From the IMG/VR virus record IMGVR_UViG_3300025617_000001, positions 1 through 64,000 of that record: a stretch of DNA of 64,000 nucleotides; one strand, written 5' to 3'. Position 1 is the first letter of the stretch, and the number at the start of each line of letters is the position of its first letter. The position numbers and the translations under genes were made by a program. This document shows positions 7,139 to 35,600 of this stretch, in pieces. The stretch is from a virus. The notes beneath the pieces are model-generated. The model was not told the origin of the DNA, ran no database searches, and worked only from the letters and a program-made list of their open reading frames with translations.

Positions 7139-7381
7139 TTACTTACAGTTGTTCTTTCTAGTTCCTTTACCATGGCCTGAACGGTTAGCTTTAACCGATA
7201 CAAACTTTTTCTTTGTATGGTCGTAGTCCTTACCGTTAATATCCTTCCCAGCTTTAATTGCAGCTCTGCGCTTTCTCTGATTCTCGGCCTTCATCTTCCG
7301 ACGCCGTGGAGTCATCGCTGCCGCAATATCTCGCTTACGTTTAGCCAGCAATGCTTTTTTTGATAATTTCTGTTTTGCCAT
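7139..7381 (-). CDS. Small very basic protein
   Basis: The protein has 80 aa, starting MAKQKLSKKALLAKRKRD. An upstream in-frame ATG at 7405 exists, but the one at 7381 matches the MAKQK-type start and the leader 'gcttact'. The protein is about 40 percent Lys/Arg with no Trp, consistent with nucleic-acid binding or a virion DNA-associated role; no family is recognised. It is the first gene of the leftward appendage unit and abuts the start of the 1076-aa fibre gene (stop at 7139-7141, ATG at 7138). It resembles in style the Lys-rich proteins at 56191-56537. Confidence 0.6.
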   Translation of the reverse strand: MAKQKLSKKALLAKRKRDIAAAMTPRRRKMKAENQRKRRAAIKAGKDINGKDYDHTKKKFVSVKANRSGHGKGTRKNNCK

Positions 7382-7420
7382 AAGTAAGCTATTACATATA
7401 AGCATCGTAAATTAAAGGGG

Positions 7421-7463
7421 GCGACAATAGCCTCTACTCTTATATCTTAAGGCTTAATGTCAC
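7421..7463 (+). repeat. Element E1 of a three-copy interrupted palindrome
   Basis: The sequence starts GCGACAATAGCC and ends GGCTTAATGTCAC, 43 bp end to end. It matches E2 (9417-9460) and E3 (16422-16466) at both ends and in spacing. The arms are imperfect inverted repeats, so the element could be an operator for a dimeric protein or a structured RNA. It lies 40 bp upstream of the leftward start at 7381. Confidence 0.7.
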
Positions 7464-7482
7464 ACATTACCCGAATTAGTAT

Positions 7483-7540: not shown

Positions 7541-7691
7541 GGGTATTATACCTATACTTTACAGTACACAACACGAAAGGGAAAACGCTTTAGAAAACCC
7601 CACGGGCCCCGTAACAGGGCGTAAGCCTAGAAATGTTTTGGCTTTTGCTGCAGACACTATACGGACCTCAACACTATACTATTTTGTACAG

Positions 7692-7717: not shown

Positions 7718-7750
7718 GCAGACTCTCTACGAGTTGAGTTAGATAATATA
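7718..7750 (+). promoter_or_regulatory. Early promoter motif P1
   Basis: GCAGA, 5 nt, TACGA, 9 nt, GATAATATA. This is the first of 13 copies with identical spacing and one of three in tandem before the gene at 7928. The GATAAT part resembles a -10 box. The TACGA and GCAGA boxes do not fit the sigma-70 -35 position or the Bacteroidota TTTG/TAnnTTTG promoter. Confidence 0.8.
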
Positions 7751-7785
7751 TATGTACTGAGTTACTGACAGAGCCAAGAGCAAAT

Positions 7786-7818
7786 GCAGACAGAGTACGA
7801 GTGGAGTTGGATAATATA
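7786..7818 (+). promoter_or_regulatory. Early promoter motif P2
   Basis: GCAGA, 5 nt, TACGA, 9 nt, GATAATATA, with the same spacing as P1. It is the middle copy of the tandem triplet upstream of 7928. An AT-only leader follows. Confidence 0.8.
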
Positions 7819-7854
7819 TTTGATTAAAAAATAAATAAATAAAAAAATATAATA

Positions 7855-7887
7855 ACAGAATTAATACGAGTTATATCAGATAATATA
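7855..7887 (+). promoter_or_regulatory. Early promoter motif P3
   Basis: ACAGA, 5 nt, TACGA, 9 nt, GATAATATA. It ends 40 bp before the ATG at 7928, the usual distance in this genome from motif to start codon. Confidence 0.8.
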
Positions 7888-7927
7888 ATAAATTAAAATA
7901 AATAATAACTAAATTAAATTAATTACT

Positions 7928-8149
7928 ATGCAAACAAAAAGATTCGTAATTCGCAAATCACTAGTTGGAAAGAATGTTACAATTACATTCACAAATGCCA
8001 AAGGCCAAGTGTACAAGTACAATCATGATGAAGTGTACAATGCTAACAAGAAAAAGCTTGAAGCTATGAACTGCTTTCAAAAGTACAAAAGCTACACAGC
8101 TACAAACAATGTGCCTTCATTCGCTAAAGAGTTACTCATCACTGAGTAG
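7928..8149 (+). CDS. Small basic early protein, paralogue of 9121-9339
   Basis: The protein has 73 aa, starting MQTKRFVIRKSLVGKNV. It aligns over its full length with the 72-aa product at 9121-9339, sharing for example the KRFVIRKSL start, KYNHDEV and FQKYKSYTATNNVPSFAK. This points to a gene duplication. The predicted fold is a small beta-strand N-terminus plus a Lys-rich helix; no known family is recognised. It follows three tandem promoters, so it is probably the most strongly expressed early gene. The start follows the A/T leader 'aattaattact' without a Shine-Dalgarno sequence. Confidence 0.75.
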   Translation: MQTKRFVIRKSLVGKNVTITFTNAKGQVYKYNHDEVYNANKKKLEAMNCFQKYKSYTATNNVPSFAKELLITE

Positions 8150-8167
8150 CTCTTAGCTAAACCAAAA

Positions 8168-8200
8168 GCAGATATACTACGATATGGTCTTGATAATATC
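8168..8200 (+). promoter_or_regulatory. Early promoter motif P4
   Basis: GCAGA, 5 nt, TACGA, 9 nt, GATAATATC. It ends 43 bp before the ATG at 8244 and separates that unit from the preceding gene. Confidence 0.8.
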
Positions 8201-8243
8201 TTTGATAACAATAATAACAATATTAATTACTAAATACTAAATT

Positions 8244-8525
8244 ATGTCACAATTAATCAGTAACTGCTGCGGTGCAAGTCCGTGGCTCGGTAACGAACAG
8301 TTAGAACGTTGCGCTGAGTGCCTTGAGCACTGCGAGTTCGAAACCGAAGACAAAACGTTCTCTAAGAGATTCTTTCTGGGTTCACTAGCCTCTAAGTTGT
8401 TCATCTTACACAACGTACAACAAAGAGGCTTAGGATCAGCCAGACGTGAACTAATGGGTATGGATCTTCCTATCTCAGATGTTCAAGAGGTAAGTAGAAT
8501 GTTAATACACATGTGCCATGAGTAA
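8244..8525 (+). CDS. Small zinc-ribbon protein
   Basis: The protein has 93 aa. The N-terminus NCCGASPWLGNEQLERCAEC, followed by LEHC, supplies a Cys pair and a CxxC-x3-C cluster (C8, C9, C23, C26, C30), a phage-type zinc ribbon. The remaining 60 residues look alpha-helical. No enzymatic motif is seen. It may bind nucleic acid or a host protein; that is inference from the fold. It follows promoter P4 and overlaps the next gene by 8 bp. Confidence 0.7.
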   Translation: MSQLISNCCGASPWLGNEQLERCAECLEHCEFETEDKTFSKRFFLGSLASKLFILHNVQQRGLGSARRELMGMDLPISDVQEVSRMLIHMCHE

Positions 8526-8706
8526 ATTTGTAGATCAACCAGCTGAAAAGATAGCTGAACAGTTAGAGAGGGTTATTCAGTTCAAGAAGGATAATCCTCT
8601 GTTAGCTGACCTTGTAAAGATACGTGCATGGGAAAAATGGTGTACAAGCTATGAGTACCGTAAGAATGAATGGGAGTGGAGACAGAAGTACTTTGCAAAC
8701 CGTTAA
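8518..8706 (+). CDS. Hypothetical helical early protein
   Basis: The protein has 62 aa, starting MSKFVDQPAEKIAEQLERV. It is rich in charged and aromatic residues (five Trp/Tyr in the last 25 residues) and predicted mostly helical. The ATG lies inside the stop region of the zinc-ribbon gene, so the two are probably co-translated. No family is recognised. Confidence 0.6.
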   Translation: MSKFVDQPAEKIAEQLERVIQFKKDNPLLADLVKIRAWEKWCTSYEYRKNEWEWRQKYFANR

Positions 8707-8709
8707 TAG

Positions 8710-8732
8710 CACCTCGCCAGAGGTGTATAGCA
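8710..8732 (+). terminator. Hairpin merging into TGTATAGCA
   Basis: CACCTC, loop GCCA, GAGGTG. The last TG of the stem begins TGTATAGCA, the tail also found after the hairpins at 7692 and 9355. It lies right after the stop at 8706 and right before promoter P5. Confidence 0.4.
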
Positions 8733-8765
8733 GCAGACACGGTACGGGAACAGTTTGATAATATA
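8733..8765 (+). promoter_or_regulatory. Early promoter motif P5
   Basis: GCAGA, 5 nt, TACGG, 9 nt, GATAATATA, followed by ACTGAAT. This is the only copy with TACGG instead of TACGA. It drives the small gene at 8787. Confidence 0.75.
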
Positions 8766-8786
8766 ACTGAATAAAAAATAAATATT

Positions 8787-8933
8787 ATGCCAAAAAAAAT
8801 GTCACCATCGGAAATTAAAAACCACATCGAACGCCTTGAAGCTGTTGAGGCAAAATACCAACACCTGTACGATACCTTCGAGGATCACGACGACTGGGTA
8901 TGGTTTATCGGTGAACGTATGGCAGAGGAATAA
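8787..8933 (+). CDS. Hypothetical 48-aa early protein
   Basis: The protein starts MPKKMSPSEIKNHIERLE and ends DDWVWFIGERMAEE. It has an N-terminal helix with coiled-coil character and an acidic C-terminus. It has its own promoter (P5) 21 bp upstream and the usual 'aatattATG' leader, which supports it as a real gene despite its size. No family is recognised. Confidence 0.6.
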   Translation: MPKKMSPSEIKNHIERLEAVEAKYQHLYDTFEDHDDWVWFIGERMAEE

Positions 8934-8988
8934 TCCCTGCCACCTAACATAGAGTAATTACTTGGCCTGGTTTTGAAATAGGATCGGA

Positions 8989-9010
8989 AGAGTAGACTCC
9001 GTCATACTCT
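8989..9010 (+). terminator. Bulged hairpin, possible transcript end
   Basis: AGAGTAGAC, loop TCC, GTC(A)TACTCT forms a 9-bp stem with one bulged A. It sits in the 119-bp gap between the gene at 8787 and promoter P6. No U-tract follows. Confidence 0.35.
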
Positions 9011-9052
9011 ATACTTAAGTGCTATACACGAGTGAAGTAAAGAATAAAAGTT

Positions 9053-9085
9053 GCAGACAGGATACGAGATCAGATCGATAATATA
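9053..9085 (+). promoter_or_regulatory. Early promoter motif P6
   Basis: GCAGA (preceded by TT), 5 nt, TACGA, 9 nt, GATAATATA, followed by ACTGTTC. It ends 35 bp before the ATG at 9121. Confidence 0.8.
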
Positions 9086-9120
9086 ACTGTTCAATAATTA
9101 ATAACTTAAATTTTATTACT

Positions 9121-9339
9121 ATGACTACAAAAAGATTCGTTATCAGAAAATCATTACTTGGAAAAAATGAAGTAATTACCTTCACTAACAAGAAAGGTGA
9201 AACCTTCAAGTACAACCACGACGAAGTATTCAAAGCGAACAAAGAAAAACTCGAAGCGATGCCTTGCTTCCAGAAGTACAAATCTTACACTGCTACGAAT
9301 AACGTACCATCCTTCGCTAAAGATCTACTACTGAAGTAA
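9121..9339 (+). CDS. Small basic early protein, paralogue of 7928-8149
   Basis: The protein has 72 aa and is a close duplicate of the 73-aa product at 7928-8149 (about 70 percent identical by eye). Synonymous codon choices differ between the two copies, so the duplication is not recent. Both copies have a dedicated promoter, suggesting dosage or two specialised roles. The function is unknown; the small size, basic charge and early position fit a host-takeover factor, which is inference only. Confidence 0.75.
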   Translation: MTTKRFVIRKSLLGKNEVITFTNKKGETFKYNHDEVFKANKEKLEAMPCFQKYKSYTATNNVPSFAKDLLLK

Positions 9340-9354
9340 GATCTTAAAAGTATG

Positions 9355-9379
9355 CGCTCCTTCGGGAGCGTGTATAGCA
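9355..9379 (+). terminator. UUCG-loop hairpin followed by TGTATAGCA
   Basis: CGCTCC, loop TTCG, GGAGCG, then TGTATAGCA. The very stable UUCG tetraloop lies 15 bp after the stop at 9339. It fits a transcript end or a 3' stabiliser for the preceding short mRNA. Confidence 0.5.
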
Positions 9380-9416
9380 CTTCACTTCACCTTTACCAGA
9401 ATCACCACGAAGCAGG

Positions 9417-9460
9417 GTGACAATTGCCTCGGAATATACTACTTATAAGGCTACTGTCAC
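9417..9460 (+). repeat. Element E2 of a three-copy interrupted palindrome
   Basis: It starts GTGACAATTGCC and ends GGCTACTGTCAC, 44 bp. The outer GTGACA and TGTCAC are perfect inverted repeats. It has the same orientation as E1 and E3. It lies in the 280-bp gene-free stretch between 9340 and 9619, which otherwise holds the UUCG hairpin and promoter P7. Confidence 0.7.
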
Positions 9461-9552
9461 ACTTTTTCTTAAGACACACTCAGAAGCGTGGTTTTATACC
9501 TCTCCCTACTTTTTAAACTATAACTAAACTATCCACTTTATATTACACTTTT

Positions 9553-9585
9553 GCAGATATAATACGATGCGAGTAAGATAATATA
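9553..9585 (+). promoter_or_regulatory. Early promoter motif P7
   Basis: GCAGA (preceded by TT), 5 nt, TACGA, 9 nt, GATAATATA, followed by ACTGTAATT. It heads the five-gene unit starting at 9620. Confidence 0.8.
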
Positions 9586-9619
9586 ACTGTAATTAATAAA
9601 TAACTTAAAATTTATAACT

Positions 9620-9808
9620 ATGACTATTAAATTTACTTCAAAAAGCAAACGACCTTATTTAAAGTTCAACCATTCTAAGTACTATGGTTTTAAGATCAGT
9701 AAACTACCTAAAGCGTTCGCTGAAATAACCTCGGAAGAACCAATTAACGAGTGGTTCAACTACGCTGGCTTTACTTTTATACACCAATCTTATATTAAAA
9801 CAGTATAA
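9620..9808 (+). CDS. Hypothetical early protein
   Basis: The protein has 62 aa, starting MTIKFTSKSKRPYLKFNHSK. It is basic at the N-terminus and aromatic-rich, with no recognised domain. It is the first gene after promoter P7. The next gene begins 2 bp after its stop. Confidence 0.6.
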   Translation: MTIKFTSKSKRPYLKFNHSKYYGFKISKLPKAFAEITSEEPINEWFNYAGFTFIHQSYIKTV

Positions 9809-9810
9809 CT

Positions 9811-9951
9811 ATGATAAGTATATTACAAGTATTAGAACAAGGTGGTTTAGAGTACGACGGAGTATGGATCACTGATATTTACTACGACGAGACAGGTAGA
9901 CACGAAGTAGATCCTCGCGAGTATTATAATATTAACTTTAAACTAGATTAA
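9811..9951 (+). CDS. Hypothetical 46-aa early protein
   Basis: The protein starts MISILQVLEQGGLEYDGVWI and ends NINFKLD. It is acidic and mostly predicted beta. It is packed 2 bp from both neighbours with the same 'aactATG' start context, which supports it as a gene. No family is recognised. Confidence 0.55.
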   Translation: MISILQVLEQGGLEYDGVWITDIYYDETGRHEVDPREYYNINFKLD

Positions 9952-9953
9952 CT

Positions 9954-10160
9954 ATGATCTTTGAACTTGAAATAGAATTTTACTTAACTGAAGAACAAAA
10001 GAAAGAGTATGGTATGGAAGACTTCATTATCTATGTAGAATCTAGCACACCTTACGTTACTCCTGAGCTCTTAGAGTCAGAGTATAATATGGCGACGGAT
10101 TGCCACGATGCACTATTACAACCTTTCAAACTATTAACTTCTAGGTGGATAAAACTATAA
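9954..10160 (+). CDS. Hypothetical acidic early protein
   Basis: The protein has 68 aa, starting MIFELEIEFYLTEEQKKEYG. It is strongly acidic in the first half, with C-terminal LLTSRWIKL. It is the third gene of the P7 unit. No family is recognised. Confidence 0.6.
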   Translation: MIFELEIEFYLTEEQKKEYGMEDFIIYVESSTPYVTPELLESEYNMATDCHDALLQPFKLLTSRWIKL

Positions 10161-10165
10161 CTACA

Positions 10166-10297
10166 ATGGATAAGAATACTATTGAAAAATTAAAGCAATT
10201 ATTTCCTTATAAATCAGAGTACGATCCAGACAAGTATATGGAAACAGTGATGGATTATATATACTCTGAAATAGTAGACGAACTAATTACAAATTAA
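10166..10297 (+). CDS. Hypothetical 43-aa early protein
   Basis: The protein starts MDKNTIEKLKQLFPYKSEYD and is mostly helical and acidic. Its last codons overlap the upstream box of promoter P8, so it closes the P7 unit. Function unknown. Confidence 0.5.
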   Translation: MDKNTIEKLKQLFPYKSEYDPDKYMETVMDYIYSEIVDELITN

Positions 10298-10321
10298 ATA
10301 CGATTGAAGTAAGATAATATA
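10289..10321 (+). promoter_or_regulatory. Early promoter motif P8
   Basis: ACAAA, 5 nt, TACGA, 9 nt, GATAATATA. The upstream box is degenerate, while the other boxes and the spacing are intact. It lies 19 bp before the ATG at 10341. Confidence 0.75.
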
Positions 10322-10340
10322 ATAAACTAATATAATAATT

Positions 10341-10511
10341 ATGAAGAATTTATTACTAAACTACGATCGCGAAGAAATATTCGACAAAGTTGTAGAAACT
10401 GAAATCTTTGATTACTACATGGATAAACTCCACATGGACGACTTCTGTACACTTCAAAACGACATAGCGTACTTCATCAGTACATTAGAAACTAAAATAG
10501 TAAAAGAATAA
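10341..10511 (+). CDS. Hypothetical 56-aa early protein
   Basis: The protein starts MKNLLLNYDREEIFDKVVE. It is acidic and helical, with a single Cys. It follows promoter P8 and is 2 bp from the next gene. No family is recognised. Confidence 0.55.
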   Translation: MKNLLLNYDREEIFDKVVETEIFDYYMDKLHMDDFCTLQNDIAYFISTLETKIVKE

Positions 10512-10513
10512 CT

Positions 10514-10693
10514 ATGAGTTATACTAGAGAAGAACTAGAGAAGCGCGACTTGTTGCTATACATCGACTTTCAACGTATCTGCGAAGAATTCGACTTAGAC
10601 GAAGGTGGACTGGCGCCTGAGCAACACTTAGAACTAGAAAATATATTAATAGAATTTATACTACAGAATAAATGGCAAAATCAAGACAAGTAA
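10514..10693 (+). CDS. Hypothetical 59-aa early protein
   Basis: The protein starts MSYTREELEKRDLLLYIDFQ. It is a helical acidic protein with no recognised motif. Its 3' end overlaps the next gene by 22 bp. Confidence 0.55.
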   Translation: MSYTREELEKRDLLLYIDFQRICEEFDLDEGGLAPEQHLELENILIEFILQNKWQNQDK

Positions 10694-10821
10694 CAGTAAA
10701 ATTAACCTCATGGCAATCAGAAAAAGATTTAAACAAAGTATTAGAAGAAATATTCTGGGACTCGAAGTATTCTTACGAGTTCGACACTAACGAGTGGGAG
10801 ATCGATGAAGTTGCAGATTAA
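10672..10821 (+). CDS. Hypothetical 49-aa early protein
   Basis: The protein starts MAKSRQVTVKLTSWQSEKDL and ends NEWEIDEVAD. The start lies inside the previous gene, and the stop lies inside the first boxes of promoter P9, so coding and regulatory sequence overlap. Function unknown. Confidence 0.5.
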   Translation: MAKSRQVTVKLTSWQSEKDLNKVLEEIFWDSKYSYEFDTNEWEIDEVAD

Positions 10822-10845
10822 ATACGACTGAAGTAAGATAATATT
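10813..10845 (+). promoter_or_regulatory. Early promoter motif P9
   Basis: GCAGA (preceded by TT), 5 nt, TACGA, 9 nt, GATAATATT, followed by CATGTAAC. It overlaps the end of the gene at 10672 and ends 22 bp before the ATG at 10868. Confidence 0.8.
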
Positions 10846-10867
10846 CATGTAACAAAAATTAATAACT

Positions 10868-11119
10868 ATGCAAGATTACTTAACAACTCCAATTACCAAT
10901 AACGAGCAAGCCAAAAAATATATCTGCGACTTGTACTTTGACGGCAAACTGTACCATTTAGATGAGTCAGCAAGTATTATTATTAATATTAAAACAGGCG
11001 AAGACTTTTTTACGCCTGAAGAGTGCGAGCTTCTCGATAAAAGACGAGACGAAGTATTCGAGCACATGGAAATAGATCCACATCAACTTTGTTGTGCTTT
11101 GCATGATATTAAACTTTAA
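10868..11119 (+). CDS. Hypothetical acidic early protein
   Basis: The protein has 83 aa, starting MQDYLTTPITNNEQAKKYIC. It is acidic overall, with a Cys-Cys pair near the C-terminus (QLCCALHD). It is the first gene after P9. No family is recognised. Confidence 0.6.
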   Translation: MQDYLTTPITNNEQAKKYICDLYFDGKLYHLDESASIIINIKTGEDFFTPEECELLDKRRDEVFEHMEIDPHQLCCALHDIKL

Positions 11120-11130
11120 AATTAAACGCT

Positions 11131-11280
11131 ATGTATTTAACAGAACAAGAATTAGCATTAGTATTCGAGAATATGAAGTTTGCACTCGAGCACTTGACCG
11201 ATGACTTTACTGATCCAGTATTCACCGATCACTACAGAAAAGATATAGATTTATTAAATAAAATAAGCAATACGTTATGA
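11131..11280 (+). CDS. Hypothetical 49-aa early protein
   Basis: The protein starts MYLTEQELALVFENMKFALE. It is helical and acidic. The stop overlaps the next start as ATGA, a classic coupling arrangement that supports both genes. Confidence 0.55.
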   Translation: MYLTEQELALVFENMKFALEHLTDDFTDPVFTDHYRKDIDLLNKISNTL

Positions 11281-11606
11281 CTACACTAATTAAACCACAG
11301 AAGAAAAACCACATTTACTACTTCAATGAAGACACAGTAAAAGATTACATGTACGAAACCCACACTGCGAAGTACGAGTTTGTTCGCTACAACTGCGACT
11401 GGGAAGACGACGAGTTACTGTTCAACGAGATACTCGAAGACTTTGACGATCAGATACAAGAAGCAGAAATCGCCGAGTTTATAGAAATGAAATCTTGGGA
11501 TCCAGAGTATTTAGCTATGGCACTACGTCGTGAGTGGCGTAAACAAAGTATATTACAATTAGAAATTAAAAAAATTAAAGAAGCAGTAAATAACGTTCGT
11601 TACTAA
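11277..11606 (+). CDS. Hypothetical acidic early protein
   Basis: The protein has 109 aa, starting MTTLIKPQKKNHIYYFNEDT. It has a highly acidic centre (about 40-75, with many Asp/Glu) and a basic helical C-terminus. A strongly acidic phage early protein could act as a DNA mimic or bind a basic host target; this is speculative. It is coupled to the upstream gene by a 4-bp overlap and lies 1 bp from the next. Confidence 0.6.
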   Translation: MTTLIKPQKKNHIYYFNEDTVKDYMYETHTAKYEFVRYNCDWEDDELLFNEILEDFDDQIQEAEIAEFIEMKSWDPEYLAMALRREWRKQSILQLEIKKIKEAVNNVRY

Positions 11607-11607
11607 T

Positions 11608-11877
11608 ATGGGAGCAATATCAATACACGAAGTAGCAAGTAAAAAAGTATACCGTAATGCAGTTGAAGCATACGAAGATTTAGTAGACAATGCAAGAGAG
11701 CAGTATGGCACGGATCCTTACTCAGGCACTATTGCCACAACACAGTTGCAAGGTAAAATTAGTGAGCCAGAAAACTACGAAGATTTCTACAATAAACTCG
11801 ATGCTATACACAAGCGTGACTGCTGGTACTACGAAACTGACGAGCATTATCACTTTATCGGGTGGGCTTCAAGCTAA
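11608..11877 (+). CDS. Conserved small phage protein
   Basis: The protein has 89 aa, starting MGAISIHEVASKKVYRNAVE. The segment YGTDPYSGTIATTQ and a later WYYETDEHYHFIGWASS recall a small protein recurrent in phage early regions that has a 'YSGTIxTT' core. The function of that family is not known to me. It is the last gene of the P9 unit; promoter P10 begins 3 bp after the stop. Confidence 0.6.
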   Translation: MGAISIHEVASKKVYRNAVEAYEDLVDNAREQYGTDPYSGTIATTQLQGKISEPENYEDFYNKLDAIHKRDCWYYETDEHYHFIGWASS

Positions 11878-11879
11878 AT

Positions 11880-11912
11880 ACAGACTTAATACGACAACAG
11901 CGCGATAATATA
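11880..11912 (+). promoter_or_regulatory. Early promoter motif P10
   Basis: ACAGA, 5 nt, TACGA, 9 nt, GATAATATA, followed by ACTGTAAC. It ends 26 bp before the ATG at 11939. Confidence 0.8.
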
Positions 11913-11938
11913 ACTGTAACAAATTAAATTATATAGAT

Positions 11939-12193
11939 ATGGAAAAATTACTACAAGAATTACGTTCAACAGGCGGCATCTTCAATGTACGCTTCTACAA
12001 AAAAGACGGTTCACGTCGCAGTATTAATGCACGCTTCGGTGTTCGCAAAGGTGTAAGCGGTGTAGGCCTTAAGTACGATCCAGCTTCACGTAACAACATC
12101 ATAGTATACTCTATGGTTGACGGTGGCTTCAGAACTATCAACCTCGATAGTATCTACAGAATCAAGTTTAACGGTCAAGAATATATACTGTAA
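11939..12193 (+). CDS. Small SH3/Sm-like beta-barrel protein (WYL_2-type)
   Basis: The protein has 84 aa. The pattern GIFNVRFYKKDGSRRSINAR, followed by a variable loop, NNIIVYSMVDGGFRTINLDSIYRIKFNG, is that of small phage beta-barrel proteins often annotated as WYL_2/Sm-like: paired strands with KKDGS and FR-x-INL-x-x-I turns. Related folds bind nucleic acid or ligands. It follows promoter P10 and overlaps the next start by 1 bp (TAATG). Confidence 0.6.
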   Translation: MEKLLQELRSTGGIFNVRFYKKDGSRRSINARFGVRKGVSGVGLKYDPASRNNIIVYSMVDGGFRTINLDSIYRIKFNGQEYIL

Positions 12194-12477
12194 TGTCTAA
12201 CACACCTACAAGTCACAAAGCCTTGCTGTGGCGTATCTCTCGTCACATGCAAGACATGCGTGAAGTTTGGGACTATGATGGTTCTGAAGAATATACTGAC
12301 GCAGAGATCGATATCCACAATGCAGCTATCAAGTTAGGTATTGTAGATCAAGACTGGTACGATCGTCGCCTCAAGGCTACGTTTGATGAGTTATTATGTG
12401 AGCTTATCTATGTTACTGGTTTACATCACATGAAACAAAGAATAGACGAAATAATTATTAACCATGGAACCAGTTAG
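12193..12477 (+). CDS. Hypothetical early protein
   Basis: The protein has 94 aa, starting MSNTPTSHKALLWRISRHMQ. It is predicted all-helical, with several His residues and one Cys. No family is recognised. The start overlaps the upstream stop by one base, and the stop overlaps the next gene by 14 bp. Confidence 0.6.
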   Translation: MSNTPTSHKALLWRISRHMQDMREVWDYDGSEEYTDAEIDIHNAAIKLGIVDQDWYDRRLKATFDELLCELIYVTGLHHMKQRIDEIIINHGTS

Positions 12478-12583
12478 ATCAGGTCAAGGTAGATCTAAAA
12501 ATCAGATTGCCTGTAACGAAAAAGTAGCAGGCTATACAGCGGTTGGCTTTATAGCTTTATTAATATTAGCAATTGTATTATGA
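12464..12583 (+). CDS. Single-span membrane microprotein
   Basis: The protein has 39 aa, with a basic N-terminus (MEPVRSGQGRSKNQIACNE) followed by one hydrophobic span (YTAVGFIALLILAIVL). It is likely an inner-membrane protein with an N-in orientation by the positive-inside rule. The stop overlaps the next start as ATGA. Function unknown; superinfection exclusion or membrane targeting are possibilities. Confidence 0.6.
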   Translation: MEPVRSGQGRSKNQIACNEKVAGYTAVGFIALLILAIVL

Positions 12584-13071
12584 ATATATTTTACTTACAT
12601 AGTAACCCTTTCAAAGCTGCTGAGTATCAGTATAACAAGCATGTAGTGAAAATGGTTTTAGAGTCAGCGCAAATGCTTTGTACTGCTCACCACCATTACG
12701 GCAACGGCGATAATGTTCCGTACCGAAAAGCTCATTACAACCACCCTTCAACAGTGTGGGCTAGACAAAGTACTCAGCACTATGATTGGTTACGCGATCA
12801 CTTCATTGGTTTAGCTGACGAATATACCAAGCGATATGGTAAACGTCATTTAGCTTTTGAAAAATGTATTGACTCTTTACTTAATCCACCTACTGGTATG
12901 CCTGACAATGGTTTTACTGAACCTCCACAGTGTATGCCTGACGAGTTCAAAGCGCCTAGTGCTATACACGCGTACTGGAATTACTATCTTACTGACAAAC
13001 GTAGCGTTGTTAATTCTGATGAGAAAGCTTATGAGGCTATGCCTTCAGAACTTGCAGACAAAATACGATAG
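12580..13071 (+). CDS. Pyr_excise-like phage protein
   Basis: The protein has 163 aa. The start MNIFYLHSNPFKAAEYQYNK, followed by HVVKMVLESAQMLCTAHH, the segment YNHPSTVWARQSTQHYDWLRDHF and CMPDEFK...IHAYWNYYLTDKR match a phage family commonly named pyrimidine dimer DNA glycosylase (Pyr_excise). Its conserved HVVKM and NHP-S-x-W motifs are present. If that name is right, the protein excises UV damage, which would suit a surface-ocean phage, but activity of this family form is uncertain. Promoter P11 overlaps its last codons. Confidence 0.55.
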   Translation: MNIFYLHSNPFKAAEYQYNKHVVKMVLESAQMLCTAHHHYGNGDNVPYRKAHYNHPSTVWARQSTQHYDWLRDHFIGLADEYTKRYGKRHLAFEKCIDSLLNPPTGMPDNGFTEPPQCMPDEFKAPSAIHAYWNYYLTDKRSVVNSDEKAYEAMPSELADKIR

Positions 13072-13086
13072 CGGTTCGATAATATA
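13054..13086 (+). promoter_or_regulatory. Early promoter motif P11
   Basis: GCAGA (preceded by TT), 5 nt, TACGA, 9 nt, GATAATATA, followed by TCTGTAAC. The first half is also the end of the gene at 12580, encoding its last residues. Confidence 0.8.
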
Positions 13087-13106
13087 TCTGTAACAAATTA
13101 ATTATT

Positions 13107-13202
13107 ATGACTTTAAAATGTGAAATGTGCGGTCAACTTATGTCTCAAAGCGATTATGACTTCAGCGACATCTGTTCTGACTGTTTAGAAGAATTAAATT
13201 AA
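13107..13202 (+). CDS. 31-aa zinc-finger microprotein
   Basis: The protein starts MTLKCEMCGQLMSQSDYDFS and ends ICSDCLEELN. Two CxxC knuckles (C5-C8 and C23-C26) separated by 14 residues form a complete rubredoxin-like zinc ribbon in only 31 residues. It has a dedicated promoter (P11) and an A/T leader 'aattattATG', which support it as a real gene. Such ribbons bind DNA, RNA or a protein surface. Confidence 0.65.
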   Translation: MTLKCEMCGQLMSQSDYDFSDICSDCLEELN

Positions 13203-13207
13203 CTATT

Positions 13208-13411
13208 ATGAGAGGACCAAACATGAGTTATTGCGCAGCAGAAAACACAGAGCGCGCAATGCAGCAATTATTAGAGCTACTCGATGAAGGCGCAAAAGAC
13301 GTTGACATCAGAGAACAGACTACTGAAGGTTATGCATTAGAGTCTGTTATGGAATTATCCAGAGAATTACAAAGAATTATTCAAGACAAAATCGACGAAG
13401 CATGGGAGTAA
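13208..13411 (+). CDS. Hypothetical helical early protein
   Basis: The protein has 67 aa, starting MRGPNMSYCAAENTERAMQQ. An internal Met at residue 6 is an alternative start. It is acidic, helical and coiled-coil-prone in the second half. The C-terminus overlaps the next gene by 10 bp. No family is recognised. Confidence 0.6.
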   Translation: MRGPNMSYCAAENTERAMQQLLELLDEGAKDVDIREQTTEGYALESVMELSRELQRIIQDKIDEAWE

Positions 13412-13629
13412 CATTAAACGATATGGAGCTTGAGGTATATCATATATGTGAAGCTCAAATAGAAAAATACATTAACGATTTTATAGAAACAACAGTTTGG
13501 GATATGATTTCTGACGAAGTTTGCGATTATCCTTTTAAAAACGAATCGGACATTCCACCTGGTTCAAGATCAGTTGATGCAGCAATAGAACGTATACATT
13601 ATCATTTATCTAAAAAATTCAAACAATGA
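13402..13629 (+). CDS. Hypothetical acidic early protein
   Basis: The protein has 75 aa, starting MGVTLNDMELEVYHICEAQI. It is acidic and helical, with two Cys. The start and stop overlap both neighbours by 10 and 4 bp, so it is part of a tightly coupled string. No family is recognised. Confidence 0.6.
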   Translation: MGVTLNDMELEVYHICEAQIEKYINDFIETTVWDMISDEVCDYPFKNESDIPPGSRSVDAAIERIHYHLSKKFKQ

Positions 13630-13901
13630 AAACAGTAAAATTACCTAAGTTTAAATTAGCAGGTGAGTTAACAATTTATGACAGCGGAGACACTGTACAA
13701 AATCCTTTTTCAGGCGAAACGTACGAGCTTACAGCCGAAGAGTTGTCAGTGTACGACTATATCATTGGTTTACAACACCTTATAAATCGCTCAGGTGGAG
13801 CTTTTTCACCAACAACTCGTAAATACCAACAAGACATGCGTATCGGTCTTGACTGGTTCAGAAAAAATAACGCGTCAGCATACATGGCATTATTAGATTA
13901 A
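13626..13901 (+). CDS. Conserved marine-phage small protein
   Basis: The protein has 91 aa. The segment NPFSGETYELTAEELSVYDYI and a C-terminal MRIGLDWFRKNNASAYMALLD are recurrent in small proteins of marine phages. Molecular function is unknown. It starts with ATGA overlapping the previous stop. Confidence 0.6.
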   Translation: MKTVKLPKFKLAGELTIYDSGDTVQNPFSGETYELTAEELSVYDYIIGLQHLINRSGGAFSPTTRKYQQDMRIGLDWFRKNNASAYMALLD

Positions 13902-13903
13902 TT

Positions 13904-14017
13904 ATGAAAAAAGCATTACAATACTTATTTTACGCTTGGGTTGCTGTTATGGTAACAATTATCAGTGTTTCATCTGCAGGCTTACTGTACGGTATATTTA
14001 CCGGTCAAATACATTAG
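13904..14017 (+). CDS. Single-span membrane microprotein
   Basis: The protein has 37 aa, starting MKKALQYLFYAWVAVMVTII, followed by SVSSAGLLYGIFTGQIH. There is a Lys pair at the N-terminus and then one or two hydrophobic stretches. It is likely inserted in the inner membrane. It is 2 bp from both neighbours. Function unknown. Confidence 0.6.
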   Translation: MKKALQYLFYAWVAVMVTIISVSSAGLLYGIFTGQIH

Positions 14018-14019
14018 TC

Positions 14020-14157
14020 ATGAGGCATTACGAAAACAAGCATATAGATTATTTAGTAACACAAATCACACCAAAAGGTTTATGGGATTACTGTATCGCT
14101 AAAAAATGGTACGACGATTCAGAGTATATCAGAAAAAAATATTTAAATTATGAGTAG
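14020..14157 (+). CDS. Hypothetical 45-aa early protein
   Basis: The protein starts MRHYENKHIDYLVTQITPKG and ends IRKKYLNYE. A longer in-frame version starting at 13936 would lie entirely within the membrane microprotein gene, so the ATG at 14020, 2 bp after that stop, is preferred. It is basic and aromatic-rich. No family is recognised. Confidence 0.55.
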   Translation: MRHYENKHIDYLVTQITPKGLWDYCIAKKWYDDSEYIRKKYLNYE

Positions 14158-14290
14158 AAAATTATATTTATTCGAGCAAGAACAACAAGTATTAAAAATT
14201 CAAAACAAGCGTACAGACAAAATACGATCTGAGCGTGATAATAATGTAAATATAAAATTACAACCATGGATTACAAAGCAAAAGTTTTAG
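14150..14290 (+). CDS. Possible 46-aa basic protein overlapping promoter P12
   Basis: The protein starts MSRKLYLFEQEQQVLKIQNK. The ATG overlaps the previous stop by 8 bp (ATGAGTAG), as in real neighbours here. However, the second half is read through promoter P12 and into the next gene, so translation may be incidental. Confidence 0.35.
   Translation: MSRKLYLFEQEQQVLKIQNKRTDKIRSERDNNVNIKLQPWITKQKF
14213..14245 (+). promoter_or_regulatory. Early promoter motif P12
   Basis: ACAGA, 5 nt, TACGA, 9 nt, GATAATAAT. The final box deviates at two positions. It ends 20 bp before the ATG at 14266. Confidence 0.7.
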
Positions 14291-14619
14291 AATATTACGG
14301 ATCAGAACTAGAAACTGACTACGATTGTTGGGCAGATACTAAGTTTCAAATTAAGTATACGACAATCAGCACAGCTGATGACTACCAAATCTTTAACCGT
14401 AACGACGGTGGTTCTACAGTCTTTTATGATGAAGATCTGTTTTACTACGCAGAAAACTGTCTTGACTGCATAGTTGATGACATCAAAGACGGTTTAACAC
14501 TGTTCGTCGATGCAGATATCGCGCACGAGTGTGGTCTTGGTGATGATCAGGGTGAAAACTGGCATTGGCAAGAATTATACGAAGAGTTTTATGAAGAAGA
14601 AGATGATGATGAAGATTGA
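14266..14619 (+). CDS. Highly acidic early protein
   Basis: The protein has 117 aa, starting MDYKAKVLEYYGSELETDYD. It is strongly acidic, ending in an EEFYEEEDDDED tail, with four Cys residues around 70-90 (including AENCLDCIVDD). The charge suggests a DNA mimic or a binder of a basic host protein; this is inference. It has its own promoter (P12). Confidence 0.6.
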   Translation: MDYKAKVLEYYGSELETDYDCWADTKFQIKYTTISTADDYQIFNRNDGGSTVFYDEDLFYYAENCLDCIVDDIKDGLTLFVDADIAHECGLGDDQGENWHWQELYEEFYEEEDDDED

Positions 14620-14749
14620 TGCCGGAAAGCAAGAGGAGATACACAACATGGTAGGTCGTTACGGTGTAACAGGTACTCTTGCGTATTACCAACAAGAAGA
14701 CGACGATGAAGCTGTTTATTATATATCACTTAAATACTTTAACTCATGA
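14609..14749 (+). CDS. Hypothetical 46-aa early protein
   Basis: The protein starts MKIDAGKQEEIHNMVGRYGV. Three ATG codons follow in a row at 14603, 14606 and 14609, and the last gives the shortest overlap with the upstream gene. It is acidic in the middle (QQEDDDEAVYY). The stop overlaps the next start by 4 bp. Confidence 0.5.
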   Translation: MKIDAGKQEEIHNMVGRYGVTGTLAYYQQEDDDEAVYYISLKYFNS

Positions 14750-14952
14750 CAACTAAAGAAAAAGCTAGAAATTATATCTGGTCTCGTATTCAGTCTACCG
14801 AAAGAGAATACACTCAGATACACGACGATATGAGACAACCTGGTGATAGACGCATAAGCATGGATAAGCTAGAGCTCATGCTTGATGCTACGGATCGTAA
14901 ACTAGACATGTATAACTATTTATTTAAATTAGTAGAATTAGATGAAGGATAA
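14746..14952 (+). CDS. Hypothetical helical early protein
   Basis: The protein has 68 aa, starting MTTKEKARNYIWSRIQSTER. It is amphipathic and helical throughout and possibly a coiled coil. It is coupled on both sides: ATGA with the upstream gene and an 11-bp overlap with the DnaA-like gene. No family is recognised. Confidence 0.6.
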   Translation: MTTKEKARNYIWSRIQSTEREYTQIHDDMRQPGDRRISMDKLELMLDATDRKLDMYNYLFKLVELDEG

Positions 14953-15403
14953 ATTAAACGAAGACAAACACAAAGCATTATACGTAATCAAACATGAAAC
15001 AGAAAAAATCACTGGCATCGAAGATATTAGTTGTAAGTCCCGCGCACGGGAATATGTCTTTGCAAGATTCTTATACATCAAAGCAGCAAGAGAATTTACC
15101 GACTACGCAATGTCAGCAATAGGCGGCGGTATTGATAGAGATCATGCTACAGTTATGCACTCGCTTGTAAACTTACAGTGGGACTTTGACCATAATAAAG
15201 ATTTACAGACTAAATACGATGAGCTTGCGATAATATTAACGAACAAATTAAATATCAATGCTATCAGTAAGCTTGATGAGCAAATCGATAAGCTTTTAGA
15301 TCAGTTACATACATTACGTAAACGCAGACAAATACTTATAAATTATGAATCTTCTGACACAAAACTCGAAAATAAAGAAAACGTCCAAGTTTTTTGGAGT
15401 TAA
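14942..15403 (+). CDS. Stand-alone DnaA domain IV-like DNA-binding protein
   Basis: The protein has 153 aa. Residues 31-77 contain SRAREYVFARFLYIKAAREF, TDYAMSAIGGGI and DRDHATVMHSL. This is the helix-turn-helix pattern of DnaA domain IV, whose signature is GxRDHTTVLHAC, with R66, D67, H68, T70 and H73 matching. No AAA+ domain is present, so the protein should bind DnaA-box-like DNA without ATPase activity. The C-terminal third (about 95-140) is a coiled coil. Possible roles are origin marking for the phage or competition with host DnaA. Promoter P13 lies inside the gene. The gene overlaps its downstream neighbour by 59 bp. Confidence 0.7.
   Translation: MKDKLNEDKHKALYVIKHETEKITGIEDISCKSRAREYVFARFLYIKAAREFTDYAMSAIGGGIDRDHATVMHSLVNLQWDFDHNKDLQTKYDELAIILTNKLNINAISKLDEQIDKLLDQLHTLRKRRQILINYESSDTKLENKENVQVFWS
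15205..15237 (+). promoter_or_regulatory. Intragenic early promoter motif P13
   Basis: ACAGA, 5 nt, TACGA, 9 nt, GATAATATT, wholly inside the coding sequence of the DnaA-like gene. It lies 108 bp upstream of the ATG at 15345, so it could supply extra transcripts of the GP88-like gene and genes beyond. Confidence 0.7.
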
Positions 15404-16408: not shown

Positions 16409-16421
16409 TGTAACAAAAACT

Positions 16422-16466
16422 GTGACAATAGGCTATAAGATTATAAGAGATAGGGGCTAATGTCAC
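16422..16466 (+). repeat. Element E3 of a three-copy interrupted palindrome
   Basis: It starts GTGACAATAGGC and ends GGGCTAATGTCAC, 45 bp. The outer 6-mers are perfect inverted repeats. It lies directly on the start of the HTH gene and may be the operator through which that protein, or another regulator, controls the replication block. Confidence 0.7.
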
Positions 16467-16471
16467 ACAAT

Positions 16472-17080
16472 ATGGATTACTTACATGACAATAAGATTAT
16501 ATACAAGCGTTTGCCTGTTTCAGATCTTCCGTCTGCTACGTATCATTGGGGTTGGCACTATGAAAACGGCACACATGAATACTACGCGTTGTTTCATTCT
16601 AAAAGCCAAATAACGTCTTATAAGTCATTAAAATGGCATTTGTATGTATTATTACATCTAAATCCAGAAATGTCCAGAGAACGTTTTATTGAACTTACTG
16701 ATTATATAACTAATAAAGATAATGGGTTTATTTCCTTTACTATCAATCGCGATGATCTTAGCGATATTATTGAGAAAGTATTAATGTACAATGTTGATCA
16801 ACCACCGAACAACAGAATACGTAAAGTAATATTTAAAGACGGTACAGGTTTGTCTGTATCTGATAAACTAAAAATAACAGGTCAACTCATCGGAAGAAAT
16901 AAAAACGCTTCTGAAAGTGATATATATGAAATAATGTTGTATCTTCATGACCAAGGTGAAAAGATTACAGTTAAAAAAATATCTGAAGCCTTAAAAGTTA
17001 CAACACGTACAATATATAGAAACATAACCGATGAGTTAAAAAAAGAAAAAGACCTACTTAATGAAGAATTACAATCTTGA
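16472..17080 (+). CDS. HTH regulatory protein
   Basis: The protein has 202 aa from the ATG at 16472. An in-frame ATG at 16460 adds four residues, but it is part of the conserved E-element sequence, so the later start is preferred. The N-terminal 130 residues are unrecognised. Near the C-terminus, EKITVKKISEALKVTTRTIY followed by RNITDELKKEKDLL is a helix-turn-helix with a basic recognition helix, like RpiR/MarR-type or replication-initiator winged helices. Position at element E3 and immediately before the sigma factor suggests control of the replication block. The stop overlaps the sigma gene by 20 bp. Confidence 0.6.
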   Translation: MDYLHDNKIIYKRLPVSDLPSATYHWGWHYENGTHEYYALFHSKSQITSYKSLKWHLYVLLHLNPEMSRERFIELTDYITNKDNGFISFTINRDDLSDIIEKVLMYNVDQPPNNRIRKVIFKDGTGLSVSDKLKITGQLIGRNKNASESDIYEIMLYLHDQGEKITVKKISEALKVTTRTIYRNITDELKKEKDLLNEELQS

Positions 17081-17807
17081 CAATTACCTACGTTTCAAGA
17101 GAGACCTTGAAGAGGTAATGCCCGAAGATAAGCCGTGGATGGAATATTCACGAGACGAGTTGATTACAAAACTAATGCCGTTTGCTATTGATGTAGCAAG
17201 ATCGTTTTCAACGTCAGATCAGGCATCAGGTGTAATGAGTATAAACGACATAATGCAAGAAGCTTTCTTATCCTTGACACTAGCTGTAGATCGCATCGAC
17301 TGGAACATGATGAACCATAACGATGATCTTGAGCGTCAGATAAAAGGCTTTGTAAGCAAAAGAATAAAAGGTGGTGTTCGCAGAGCTATTGATATTAATC
17401 GCGGCGATATTAGAATACCAGAACATAAGATTAATGAGATACGTAAAAACGAAGGTAAAGACAAAGAGCTTGTTCAGATGTTTTTTAACTCTATATTTTT
17501 AAGTATCGATGAAAATGAAGAAGAAAACGGATTTGAAGTTGAAGACAAATCCAAAGACTATAACATAAATATTCTTAATAAATATATATTATCTTTGATG
17601 CGACAGTATCTAAGTGATCGTGAATACGATGTAGTTCGTATGAGCTTTGGTTTAGACTGTGATAAGTTACCCGCAAAAAAGATAGCCAAGTTGCTTGATA
17701 TACAGGGTGTTGCGGACTTCGTTCGTGTATCTCAGATTAAACGTGATGCTATTGACAAATTGATCGATAACGTGGACCCTGATCAAGTAATGGACTTTAT
17801 GAACTAA
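17061..17807 (+). CDS. Sigma-70 family RNA polymerase sigma factor
   Basis: The protein has 248 aa. Residues 33-112 fit sigma region 2: AIDVARSFS, then SINDIMQEAFLSLTLAVDRI (region 2.2 core-binding helix) and a basic QIKGFVSKRIKGGVRRAID. Residues about 184-235 fit region 4: LSDREYDVVRMSFGL, then AKKIAKLLDI and VRVSQIKRDAIDKL. Region 3 is replaced by an acidic linker (about 145-170). It likely redirects host RNA polymerase to phage promoters; which class is unknown. The GATAATATA motif family is absent in front of this gene, so that family may be read by host polymerase or by this factor in a feedback loop. Confidence 0.85.
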   Translation: MKNYNLDNYLRFKRDLEEVMPEDKPWMEYSRDELITKLMPFAIDVARSFSTSDQASGVMSINDIMQEAFLSLTLAVDRIDWNMMNHNDDLERQIKGFVSKRIKGGVRRAIDINRGDIRIPEHKINEIRKNEGKDKELVQMFFNSIFLSIDENEEENGFEVEDKSKDYNINILNKYILSLMRQYLSDREYDVVRMSFGLDCDKLPAKKIAKLLDIQGVADFVRVSQIKRDAIDKLIDNVDPDQVMDFMN

Positions 17808-32698: not shown

Positions 32699-35600
32699 TT
32701 ACTTGTTTTTCATGTACTTTTTGTACTCGTCTAGAGACATGTTATTCAAATTACTTGTTTTTTTAGATTTTTTAACTTTCTTTTTATCTCTTGACTCAAC
32801 ACCCACGTTCCAAGTATTCCAACCTAGCACTAAAGCTATTTTAGCCCAAGTCTCCGTTTCAGCATCTGAAGCCGCTTTTAAATTTCTAACTTTAGTAAGC
32901 GCTCTATCAAGAGGTACGTTTAATGTAAATGCTGAAGCTGATCCAACAATATCTAAAGCAGGATTATCAATAGTAACACCCATTTCAGCCATGCGATCTT
33001 TGTTGTATCTGTAGTTTTGGATAGAACTGTACATTTGTCTACCTTTAATACCGATAGCAGGAGATATGTTCATGGCTTCAATTAATGTGTAAGCGTGATC
33101 CGCGCGTCCCCTACCTTCTTCTTGTTTAGCTTCTTGTTCAGCAAACTTGAGTATAACGTTTTTAGCGGTAGCAAGAACTCCACCGTAAAGACCGGTACCT
33201 CTAACAACTGTATCAACTACGTTATTAATCAGTCTTAGTTTTTTCTTTTCGTTATCTTCTTTGTTTTCTTCTTCATCATCTTCGAACAACATGCCAAACA
33301 TTGCTTGCTGCATGGCTGAGAATACGATGTTCTGAACTACCATATAATAAGCTATCTTGCTAATATTTGTTTTCATATCACCGCGTCCAGCAGCTAAGTC
33401 TTTTGCAGCCTTAACTATAATTCTAGTGTACTGCATTGGTGTATTCTGGAAGGCAAGGAATACACGACCAATAACATCTGTTTGTTGTTTAGCAAGACGA
33501 TCAGGTCTAGCAGACTGTTGACTTTCTTCAGATATTTCTTGAAAGTCTAAGAAAGCTTGTTGTTCTGCTGCTTGTTGATTCATGCCTTGAGACAGATATG
33601 TATTTATTCTGTTTCTAAGGAATGGCGCGCCACCTGTTGCAATAGCAAAACTATCACCGATCTGTGTAAAACTAAAACCAAGTTGCAGTAATCTGGCGTG
33701 CATACCTTTTACACCACCTTTTTTAAGAGCTTCTGCTAAATCAGCAGCGTTAACGTCTGTTTTAAGACCTCCACGTCTTTCTTTTAAATAATCAGAGTTG
33801 AATATAAACGCCCAATCTTGAGTATACTGTTTTATATTAGCTACCGCAGCCGCGGCTTTAATAGGATTATTGTCGCTCCAATTTATAAAGTTAACTAGAG
33901 ATATTTGCTGTAGTATTGCGGATCTAGTATTAAAGAACATAGTTACAGCCACAGACCCTCTGATCCAGTTTAAAAACTGATTCATTTGCTTGTTAGTACC
34001 TTCAGGTCTTGCCGTGCCGTTTTCCATTCGGTAATGCATATCTTCAAGAGCTGATCTAAAATCAGGACCGTAAGTGGCCTCAATTTTATTCATATTATTT
34101 TCTGAAAAGATCGTGTTTTTATTGTCGATCCACTCTTGTAGCATAGCTTTTCGAGAAACTTTCTCTACAGCTTTCACCATGTCAGACTTTATAGAATCTA
34201 TCTGCCAGTTTTTAGCATCAGGCTCCACCCAAAATTCCTCAATACCTAATATGCTTGATAATTCTTTACCATAAGCTTCTATATCAGGATTATTTTTTAC
34301 AATTTTAACTAGCGCCGACTGAGTATCTTCATTTAAACCGGAAGGGTTAAATCCAGCTTTACCAAAAAGCCAAACTCTTAAAGCTTGCTCAAATGTAAAA
34401 CCACCAAAACCTGTATCTTGTTTTAGTTTTTTAACAACATCAGGGTTAGCTTTATTTATCGCTTTATATCTTTTAGTTACAAGTTGTCTTTTTGCATTTA
34501 GTGCTTGATAAGCTTTAGCAAAAGGTTTTATAAGCTTATTTTCAAAAAACTTATATTGCTCTTCTCCTAGTTTTCCTTTGTCTAAAAATCTATAAATTAA
34601 ACCTACATAATCGTCTGCAGATGGAGCTAATATATCTCTTCTTTTAGCTCTAGTAGCAGCTAAGTTTTTAGCTGTAGCCCTGTCAAGTATTTGACCGGCA
34701 GTATATCTTTTATCTACATTAGCAAGTATAGCTGACATTCTAGACTCGTCGTTAGAAATAGTCTCGTTGTTTTCTATACTATATAGCTTATTAATTTTAT
34801 CTACTTTTACAGCAAAGTCACTAGTCTTTGTTGTTTTGTCAGCTTGTCTAGCTACCCTTAAAGGTATAATTTGAGCTCTAGACTGTACTTGTTCTAATCT
34901 TTGGTCAGAAAGTATAGACGCTGCTCTTTTCACGTTTGTTTGTAATGTAGGATCTAAGTGCTCTAGTCTGTATTTTTTTCTTCTTCCAGATAAAGTTTTA
35001 GTACCATCAACTACAGAATCGTCAACTATTTCTGCTAACGCTTTTAAACCTGTGTTTATATTAGAATCAAAAGCTGCTAACTGTAAAGCGAAAACTATAC
35101 GATCAGTTAACTCTTCTTTTGTTTCAGCAGCATTAATAAAATCGTGTATGTAAGATTCAGTAATACCAAACAATCCTCTTCTTACAGCGTTGTTTTTTCT
35201 ATAGCTTTCTAATATCTTTAATCTTTCTGTTTCAGTCTTAGCTTTGTTTATCTTTCTTGTCATGTCAGAAAGAGGAACGTTATTTATTTGCTTTTTACCA
35301 TGTTTTTCAATAAAAGCATTAACAAGTTCTTGTGTTCTTTCAGAAATATTAGTGTTCGTAGATATATTTCTATTTATTTCACCTGCTTTTTTAATTATGT
35401 TTTCTAACTCTTTTTTATCAATTAAAATATTTCCTTCTTCGTCAATTATACTTTTAACGTTATCAGGATCAATTAAAGTTTCTAGTTTTATACCATAAGC
35501 GTTGGTCCTGTAGCTATATCCCGATAAAGATTTAGTCAAACTACTGTATACTTTAAAAATTGCAGGAAGACCATTTAAGAACTTAAACTGCATTTTTTCT

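Follow-up and report, generated by a model that had tools for sequence, protein, structure and literature searches.

Within the 64,000-nt stretch of viral DNA analyzed here (the window, positions 1 to 64,000 of the 66,248-bp IMG/VR virus record IMGVR_UViG_3300025617_000001), thirteen copies of a 33-bp three-box motif lie between positions 7718 and 15237, followed by a gene for a helix-turn-helix (HTH) protein and a gene for a divergent sigma factor (Table 1). An original prediction, made from the letters of the window alone, had read these copies as a phage-specific family of early promoters, and a direct check of the window confirmed all 13 coordinates, the plus-strand orientation and the identical internal spacing. 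The literal pattern offered for them, GCAGA-N5-TACGA-N9-GATAATATA, was found at only five sites (7718, 7786, 9053, 9553 and 13054), while the other eight deviate from it. Box 1 is ACAGA or ACAAA at 7855, 10289, 11880, 14213 and 15205, box 2 is TACGG at 8733, and box 3 is GATAATATC, GATAATATT or GATAATAAT at 8168, 10813, 14213 and 15205. The core common to all 13 sites is RCARA-N5-TACG(A/G)-N9-GATAAT.

A weight matrix built from the 13 sites separated them clearly from the rest of the window, with scores of 29.8–42.6 bits for the sites and 10.9 bits for the best non-site over 64 kb and both strands; the leave-one-out scores were 22.1–39.7 bits. With a broader matrix from related phages, the window sites scored 16.7–40.2, and the maximum in 20 Markov-random 64-kb sequences was 5.2. 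The full 66,248-bp record gave 13 forward and no reverse matches, which bears out the claim that the motif is missing from the late genes and the minus strand. An ATG shortly downstream had been expected of nearly every site: an open reading frame (ORF) starts 16–40 nt past the predicted +1 at 10 of the 13, and the exceptions are 7718, 7786 and 15205 (174, 106 and 104 nt), the first two of which are stacked with 7855 ahead of one gene (ATG 7928). A shared trailing sequence was likewise only partly recovered, since the literal ACTGTAAC follows 11880 alone and near variants follow several other sites. A search of the window for terminators between the supposed mini-operons gave 7, against 5.0 expected by chance. 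Two further stretches resemble the motif: GCAGACACTATACGG followed by TATACT rather than GATAAT at 7650–7683, which has the look of a degenerate fourteenth copy ahead of the array, and GTAGACTGAATACGA without GATAAT on the minus strand at 14766–14798, the top non-site mentioned above.

Table 1 Features of the promoter array and of the loci related to it. Positions refer to the window unless another locus is given.
Feature	Position	Strand	Remarks
Array promoter 1	7718..7750	+	predicted +1 7754 (G); leader 174 nt to ATG 7928
Array promoter 2	7786..7818	+	predicted +1 7822 (G); leader 106 nt to ATG 7928
Array promoter 3	7855..7887	+	predicted +1 7891 (A); leader 37 nt
Array promoter 4	8168..8200	+	predicted +1 8204 (G); leader 40 nt
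Array promoter 5, TACGG variant	8733..8765	+	predicted +1 8769 (G); leader 18 nt
Array promoter 6	9053..9085	+	predicted +1 9089 (G); leader 32 nt
Array promoter 7	9553..9585	+	predicted +1 9589 (G); leader 31 nt
Array promoter 8, ACAAA variant	10289..10321	+	predicted +1 10325 (A); leader 16 nt
Array promoter 9	10813..10845	+	predicted +1 10849 (G); leader 19 nt
Array promoter 10	11880..11912	+	predicted +1 11916 (G); leader 23 nt
Array promoter 11	13054..13086	+	predicted +1 13090 (G); leader 17 nt to 31-aa ORF
Array promoter 12, GATAATAAT variant	14213..14245	+	predicted +1 14249 (A); leader 17 nt
Array promoter 13, last of array	15205..15237	+	predicted +1 15241 (G); leader 104 nt to ATG 15345
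Divergent sigma-70-family sigma factor, 248 aa	17061..17807	+	proposed array reader; syntenic in relatives
HTH protein, 206 aa	16460..17080	+	HTH_11 E 9e-6; start codon inside palindrome E; overlaps sigma gene
Palindrome E, weak copy	7420..7464	.	score 26.3; before array, 14 nt from start of leftward gene 7139-7405
Palindrome E, within array	9416..9461	.	score 31.3
Palindrome E over HTH gene start	16421..16467	.	score 43.7
Small protein, first array gene	7928..8149	+	domain recurs in Eudoraea defence-island protein
Paralogue of 7928-8149	9121..9339	+	behind array promoter 6
Eudoraea island	L407 15475-18966; L408 877-12812 (G070 contig C5); L327
Eudoraea 378-aa protein gene	L327 4829-5965

The anatomy of the motif was derived from 291 sites in 32 related phage genomes, and their consensus is T-ACARAC-TAAA-TACGA-N9-GATAATATAAATG-TAA, with GATAAT intact in 290 of the 291. 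As the first scan had required GATAATA, it was repeated with a pattern limited to the upstream half, so that the -10 could vary; 275 matches were obtained on the array strand, 268 of them with GATA(A/G)TA, and the seven exceptions equal the background on the opposite strand (7). Motif position 37 is G or A at every one of the 291 sites, and T predominates at position 36. In 25 genes belonging to several families (MTDEQ..., MRCKCNN..., MRIKTIYDRL...), among them the sigma gene of genome G056, the ATG falls exactly at position 37, and the other main class of genes has a leader of 18–23 nt with a peak at 19–20 nt. Examples of the leaderless class are L354 12424, L362 11550 and L368 5682 (positions in sigma-gene orientation). 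Given the invariant purine, the 25 ORFs that begin exactly there and the class with leaders of about 20 nt, we infer that position 37 is the +1, which would place GATAAT at -12 to -7.

Counted from this +1, ACARAC lies at -36 to -31 and TACGA at -26 to -22, as an extra box within the spacer. The -35 place is thus taken by TACARAC, 17–18 bp upstream of GATAAT, and not by TTGACA. Nearly all sites are intergenic, with 12 of 287 falling inside an upstream ORF of at least 60 amino acids (aa). Judged by these sequence features, the motif is a promoter class of sigma-70 architecture, restricted to one strand and one region. The original prediction had seen no match to a sigma-70 -35 box and had overlooked the sigma-type -10 and the start point, and the view that the motif bears no likeness to sigma-70 promoters has to be abandoned: GATAAT is a sigma-type -10 with a purine +1 seven bases on and ACARAC at -35, and several window sites pass a loose TTGACA/17/TATAAT scan as CAGACA-17-GATAAT. 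The ATGs at the proposed +1 would further predict leaderless mRNAs in Bacteroidota phages. Position 24 (-13, just before GATAAT) is near-uniform within most genomes and differs between them, being G, T, C or A (for example T in 14/14 sites of G002, G in 7/7 of G013 and C in 9/9 of G007). This pattern would fit a promoter set tied to a genome-specific reader, and shared descent would give the same.

The virus of the window encodes a terminase of PHROG 6681, a portal protein of PHROG 6547 and GroEL, and is a podovirus of the group that includes the Flavobacterium phage elemo and Cellulophaga phages; a related terminase occurs in 87 isolate records. In one virion protein of 1,178 aa, part of the sequence matches the family of the crAss muzzle. 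Its 2,112-aa virion protein (window 32699–39037) carries a zinc-protease-like HELLH motif, and sister phages encode very large proteins (~3,700–3,900 aa) at a similar place. An exact pattern scan of viral contigs returned at least 118 matching stretches, and 42 of the longer parent contigs were searched whole. Up to 14 motif copies were found in 40 of the 42, on one strand only apart from stray two-mismatch matches, whose rate is about that of a reversed control pattern, and nearly all of these 40 have the window-type terminase. The remaining two are large, unrelated contigs with matches at chance level. As the contigs were chosen by the motif, the copy numbers do not amount to a survey.

The motif is absent from the cultured phages MW202828 (searched except for part of the late region), elemoA, phi38:1 (whole) and phi13:2 (first 40 kb). 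No description of it was found in any publication, and no promoter study of these phages was among the titles found, within an open-access subset. Judged from gene content and position, the array genes are probably early. No late promoter class was identified in the late regions (L001–L080), where genes often follow a TTCGG-loop hairpin, a run of T and, immediately upstream of the ATG, an A/T stretch such as TTATATTATATC. Two such hairpins are seen at L018 11333 and L041 11009.

A scan of 84,980 bacterial and archaeal species genomes, in which less than one match is expected by chance (an estimate from base composition), recovered the strict motif in five. Two of these matches (L326, L328) are short contigs on which the array itself is present, and so represent phage DNA that was placed in bins. 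One copy of 45 bits (L324 3091–3132) lies 8 nt before a 132-aa ORF on a 64-kb contig of a Prochlorococcus single-cell assembly that has no array and may be another phage, and another (L325 322–363, in a metagenome-assembled genome of Flavobacteriales) precedes a TerB-domain gene next to chromosomal parA/parB by 96 nt and could be due to chance. Samples of 395 Flavobacteriales and 397 Flavobacteriaceae genomes held the motif in two and one, respectively, with none beyond the five. On these counts, no cellular sigma factor in the searched genomes can use the motif class as a regulon. The view that this is a phage-specific promoter class is therefore upheld, with about 40 related contigs carrying the motif and next to no bacterial genomes doing so.

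The best candidate reader is encoded just beyond the array. The protein of 17061–17807 matched PHROG 351 (E 1.7e-11), its matches to Pfam Sigma70_r2 and Sigma70_r4 being below the cut-off, and a profile of 30 phage sigma relatives matched SigA, FliA and RpoD with E-values of 1e-11 to 1e-9 (SigA 1.3e-11). The AlphaFold model (pLDDT 77, pTM 0.46) matched sigmaA and sigmaS chains with a probability of 1.00, and its TM-scores are low because the domain placement is uncertain. By profile and by model, then, the product is a sigma-70-family protein with regions 2 and 4. A peptide-pattern search for relatives gave no match, and relatives were found by a family search. The sigma gene is present in all 23 array contigs of at least 58 kb, and those array contigs that lack it do not exceed ~55 kb and may be fragments. 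Neither sigma nor array was found in the near-complete sister phages MW202828, elemoA, phi13:2 and phi38:1 or in 12 sister contigs of 36–65 kb.

The sequence of the protein also bears on what it might read. In region 2.4, the WW pair of SigA is replaced by KR in the phage sigmas, and the invariant G104 and R107 stand at the positions of Q437 and T440 of sigma70. In E. coli sigma70, Q437 and T440 read the T at -12. From established sigma structure, an arginine (R107) would fit the invariant G at -12 of the motif. Residue 220, in the helix-turn-helix of region 4.2, sets all five genomes in which G is substantial at -36 apart from the remaining 27, which is suggestive only. We favour, with moderate confidence, a model in which host core RNA polymerase loaded with the phage's own divergent sigma would read the array promoters. 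Transcripts would then start at the purine, being either leaderless with the ATG at +1 or provided with an A/T-rich leader of about 20 nt.

Several observations weigh against recognition by the phage sigma. In most genomes its gene comes after the last motif, the usual place for a regulator that the array produces for later genes, and in G056 and G009 it is itself preceded by the motif, which would make the scheme circular without another source of the first sigma, such as a weak promoter read by the host or sigma brought in with the virion. The co-occurrence of sigma and array holds at the level of the clade and is near to one evolutionary event. Tests of co-variation between motif and sigma, made in three ways, do not single out sigma. 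In Mantel and partial Mantel tests of the motif against the sigma, terminase, exonuclease, HTH and PDG proteins, the -35 signal hangs on four divergent genomes and that between the discriminator and the N-terminal part of sigma is modest, and in a per-column association for position 24 the sigma columns performed no better than the control proteins. Ordinary sigma promoters have nothing that corresponds to the conserved TACGA box. Finally, the search for PF00940 in 20 genomes, which like that for a T7-type motif gave no match, was run without a positive control.

Some of these observations suit sigma appropriation in the style of T4 middle transcription, in which the host sigma would read GATAAT, a phage or virion protein would bind ACARAC-N4-TACGA in place of the -35 contact, and the phage sigma would act on later genes. 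A second strongly conserved box in the spacer does suggest an extra protein, and the sigma gene at the end of the array is where the regulator of the next class would be expected. However, the primary sigma of Bacteroidota reads TAnnTTTG (PMC2483708) and not GATAAT with a +1 seven bases on, and no later promoter class was found on which the phage sigma could act. The HTH protein was considered as the TACGA-binding factor and ruled out, since the array persists in G020 and G035, which do not have it. No MotA- or AsiA-like candidate appeared in the families searched, though no search aimed at them was made. On balance we consider appropriation unlikely.

A phage RNA polymerase, either injected from the virion as in N4 and crAss-like phages or of the T7 type, would explain why a long, highly conserved motif stands ahead of the first genes, as is typical of such enzymes; the 2,112-aa virion protein has no assigned function, and AATACGA resembles part of the T7 promoter. 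Yet the large ORFs checked contain no polymerase-like DxDxD (two matches are in unrelated proteins), the T7-type searches mentioned above (that for PF00940 without a positive control) were negative, the likeness to T7 fails in spacing, and two boxes plus a -10 at sigma-type distances are unlike T7-type promoters, so that we regard this explanation as very improbable. A host-encoded alternative sigma is no better placed. It would suit the sigma-like architecture and the fact that related Bacteroidota are infected by these phages, but such a factor would have chromosomal targets, and the motif is essentially absent from bacterial genomes. That the repeats are replication iterons or regulator operators beside unrelated promoters, as the three copies stacked at 68–69 bp in the divergent region 7718–7887 might suggest, is scarcely credible in view of the single strand, the start codons at fixed distance (0 or ~20 nt), the invariant +1 purine and the nearly complete intergenic placement.

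With the phage sigma kept as the proposed reader, a second control element deserves mention. Palindrome E is an imperfect palindrome of 45–48 bp with the half-site TGTGACAWTAGCCTNTTA. In the relatives (L329–L368) it occurs before the array and sometimes inside it, and one copy always covers the start codon of the HTH gene ahead of sigma; most relatives have at least two copies per genome. G020 and G035, which have no HTH gene, showed no copy in the stretch examined. Palindrome E is probably the operator of the HTH protein. Bound there, the HTH protein would switch both the array and the HTH–sigma operon, which we offer as a tentative suggestion from the placement of the copies.

The motif also occurs on a bacterial chromosome beside defence genes. 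In Eudoraea (a 231,963-bp contig, beside mutS), two copies lie 1.2 kb apart and, counted on the sequence, stand ~18–24 nt (inferred +1 to start) ahead of genes for proteins of 378 and 130 aa; the upstream copy has T instead of a purine at position 37. The neighbours encode AbiH (Pfam E 1.2e-28), a type II methyltransferase and restriction enzyme, and DrmB and DrmA of DISARM. The 378-aa protein ends in a domain of ~67 aa shared with a phage early protein (E 2.4e-14). In 28 of the 32 phages this domain forms a stand-alone small protein, and all 32 copies start no more than 60 nt from an array promoter. It is also the C-terminal part of a HEPN_Swt1 protein in another Flavobacteriaceae genome (L415 910–1737), there without the motif. 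The 73-aa early protein was modelled with a pLDDT of 91, and its AlphaFold model found no structural match in PDB or BFVD.

It is conceivable, though in our view somewhat doubtful, that bacteria captured the phage promoter as an infection sensor: the Eudoraea genes would be silent until the phage sigma appears and would then be turned on, and the small protein of the phage might act on its own as a decoy for such defence proteins or as their inhibitor. Alternatively, the Eudoraea pair may be left over from captured phage DNA and serve no regulatory purpose. Phage-triggered suicide circuits have been engineered. If the sensor reading is true, the bacterium uses the phage's own promoter as a trigger for defence genes, a natural form of such circuits.

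Taken together, these features give a readable transcription programme for a widespread clade of uncultured Bacteroidota phages, comprising promoters, starts, leaderless genes, a probable operator and a sigma factor. Since it is found almost nowhere else, the motif marks the takeover genes of these phages, and the class offers a clean way to test how -12 and -35 specificity is altered by a phage sigma.

Among known systems, the Bacteroidota housekeeping promoter consists of TTTG at -33 and TAnnTTTG at -7 (PMC2483708). It is used in the same hosts, and two window sites hold TAnnTTTG at motif positions 30–37, but the array has no TTTG at -33, its conserved element is GATAAT, and the +1 at position 37 falls inside the supposed -7 box. 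Reading the downstream end of the motif as a -7 box was accordingly ruled out, as this would suit only part of the sites and 25 ORFs have their start exactly at position 37. The original prediction was right to set the motif apart from this class. The full pattern TTTG-N17-21-TAnnTTTG occurs once in the window, outside the array sites, against 2.4 expected by chance. The T7-type promoter is TAATACGACTCACTATAG. It shares the string AATACGA with the array, but its distance to the TATA part is off by nine bases, and no T7-type polymerase was found by the PF00940 search (no positive control). The FliA (sigma-28) promoter, TAAAGTTT-N11-GCCGATAA, has GATAA in its -10, and FliA is among the best PDB sequence-profile matches of the phage sigma; the spacing, however, is off by four bases, and the array lacks GCC before GATAA.

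Further parallels come from other phages. The middle promoters of T4 combine a MotA box with a -10 and are served by sigma appropriation (PMC6755090). They share with the array a -10 plus a conserved upstream box at fixed spacing, and differ in having one such box near -30, whereas the array has two (-36/-31 and -26/-22). Phage sigma factors with their own promoter class are gp28 and gp33–gp34 of the Bacillus phage SPO1 and gp55 of T4. As in those phages, a small divergent sigma-70-family protein is accompanied here by a promoter class unlike that of the host, with the difference that we infer recognition by the sigma. Also unlike SPO1 and T4, the promoters described here contain the extra TACGA box in the spacer, give many leaderless starts, and line up on a single strand in a long array that precedes the sigma gene, in apparently early rather than middle or late genes.

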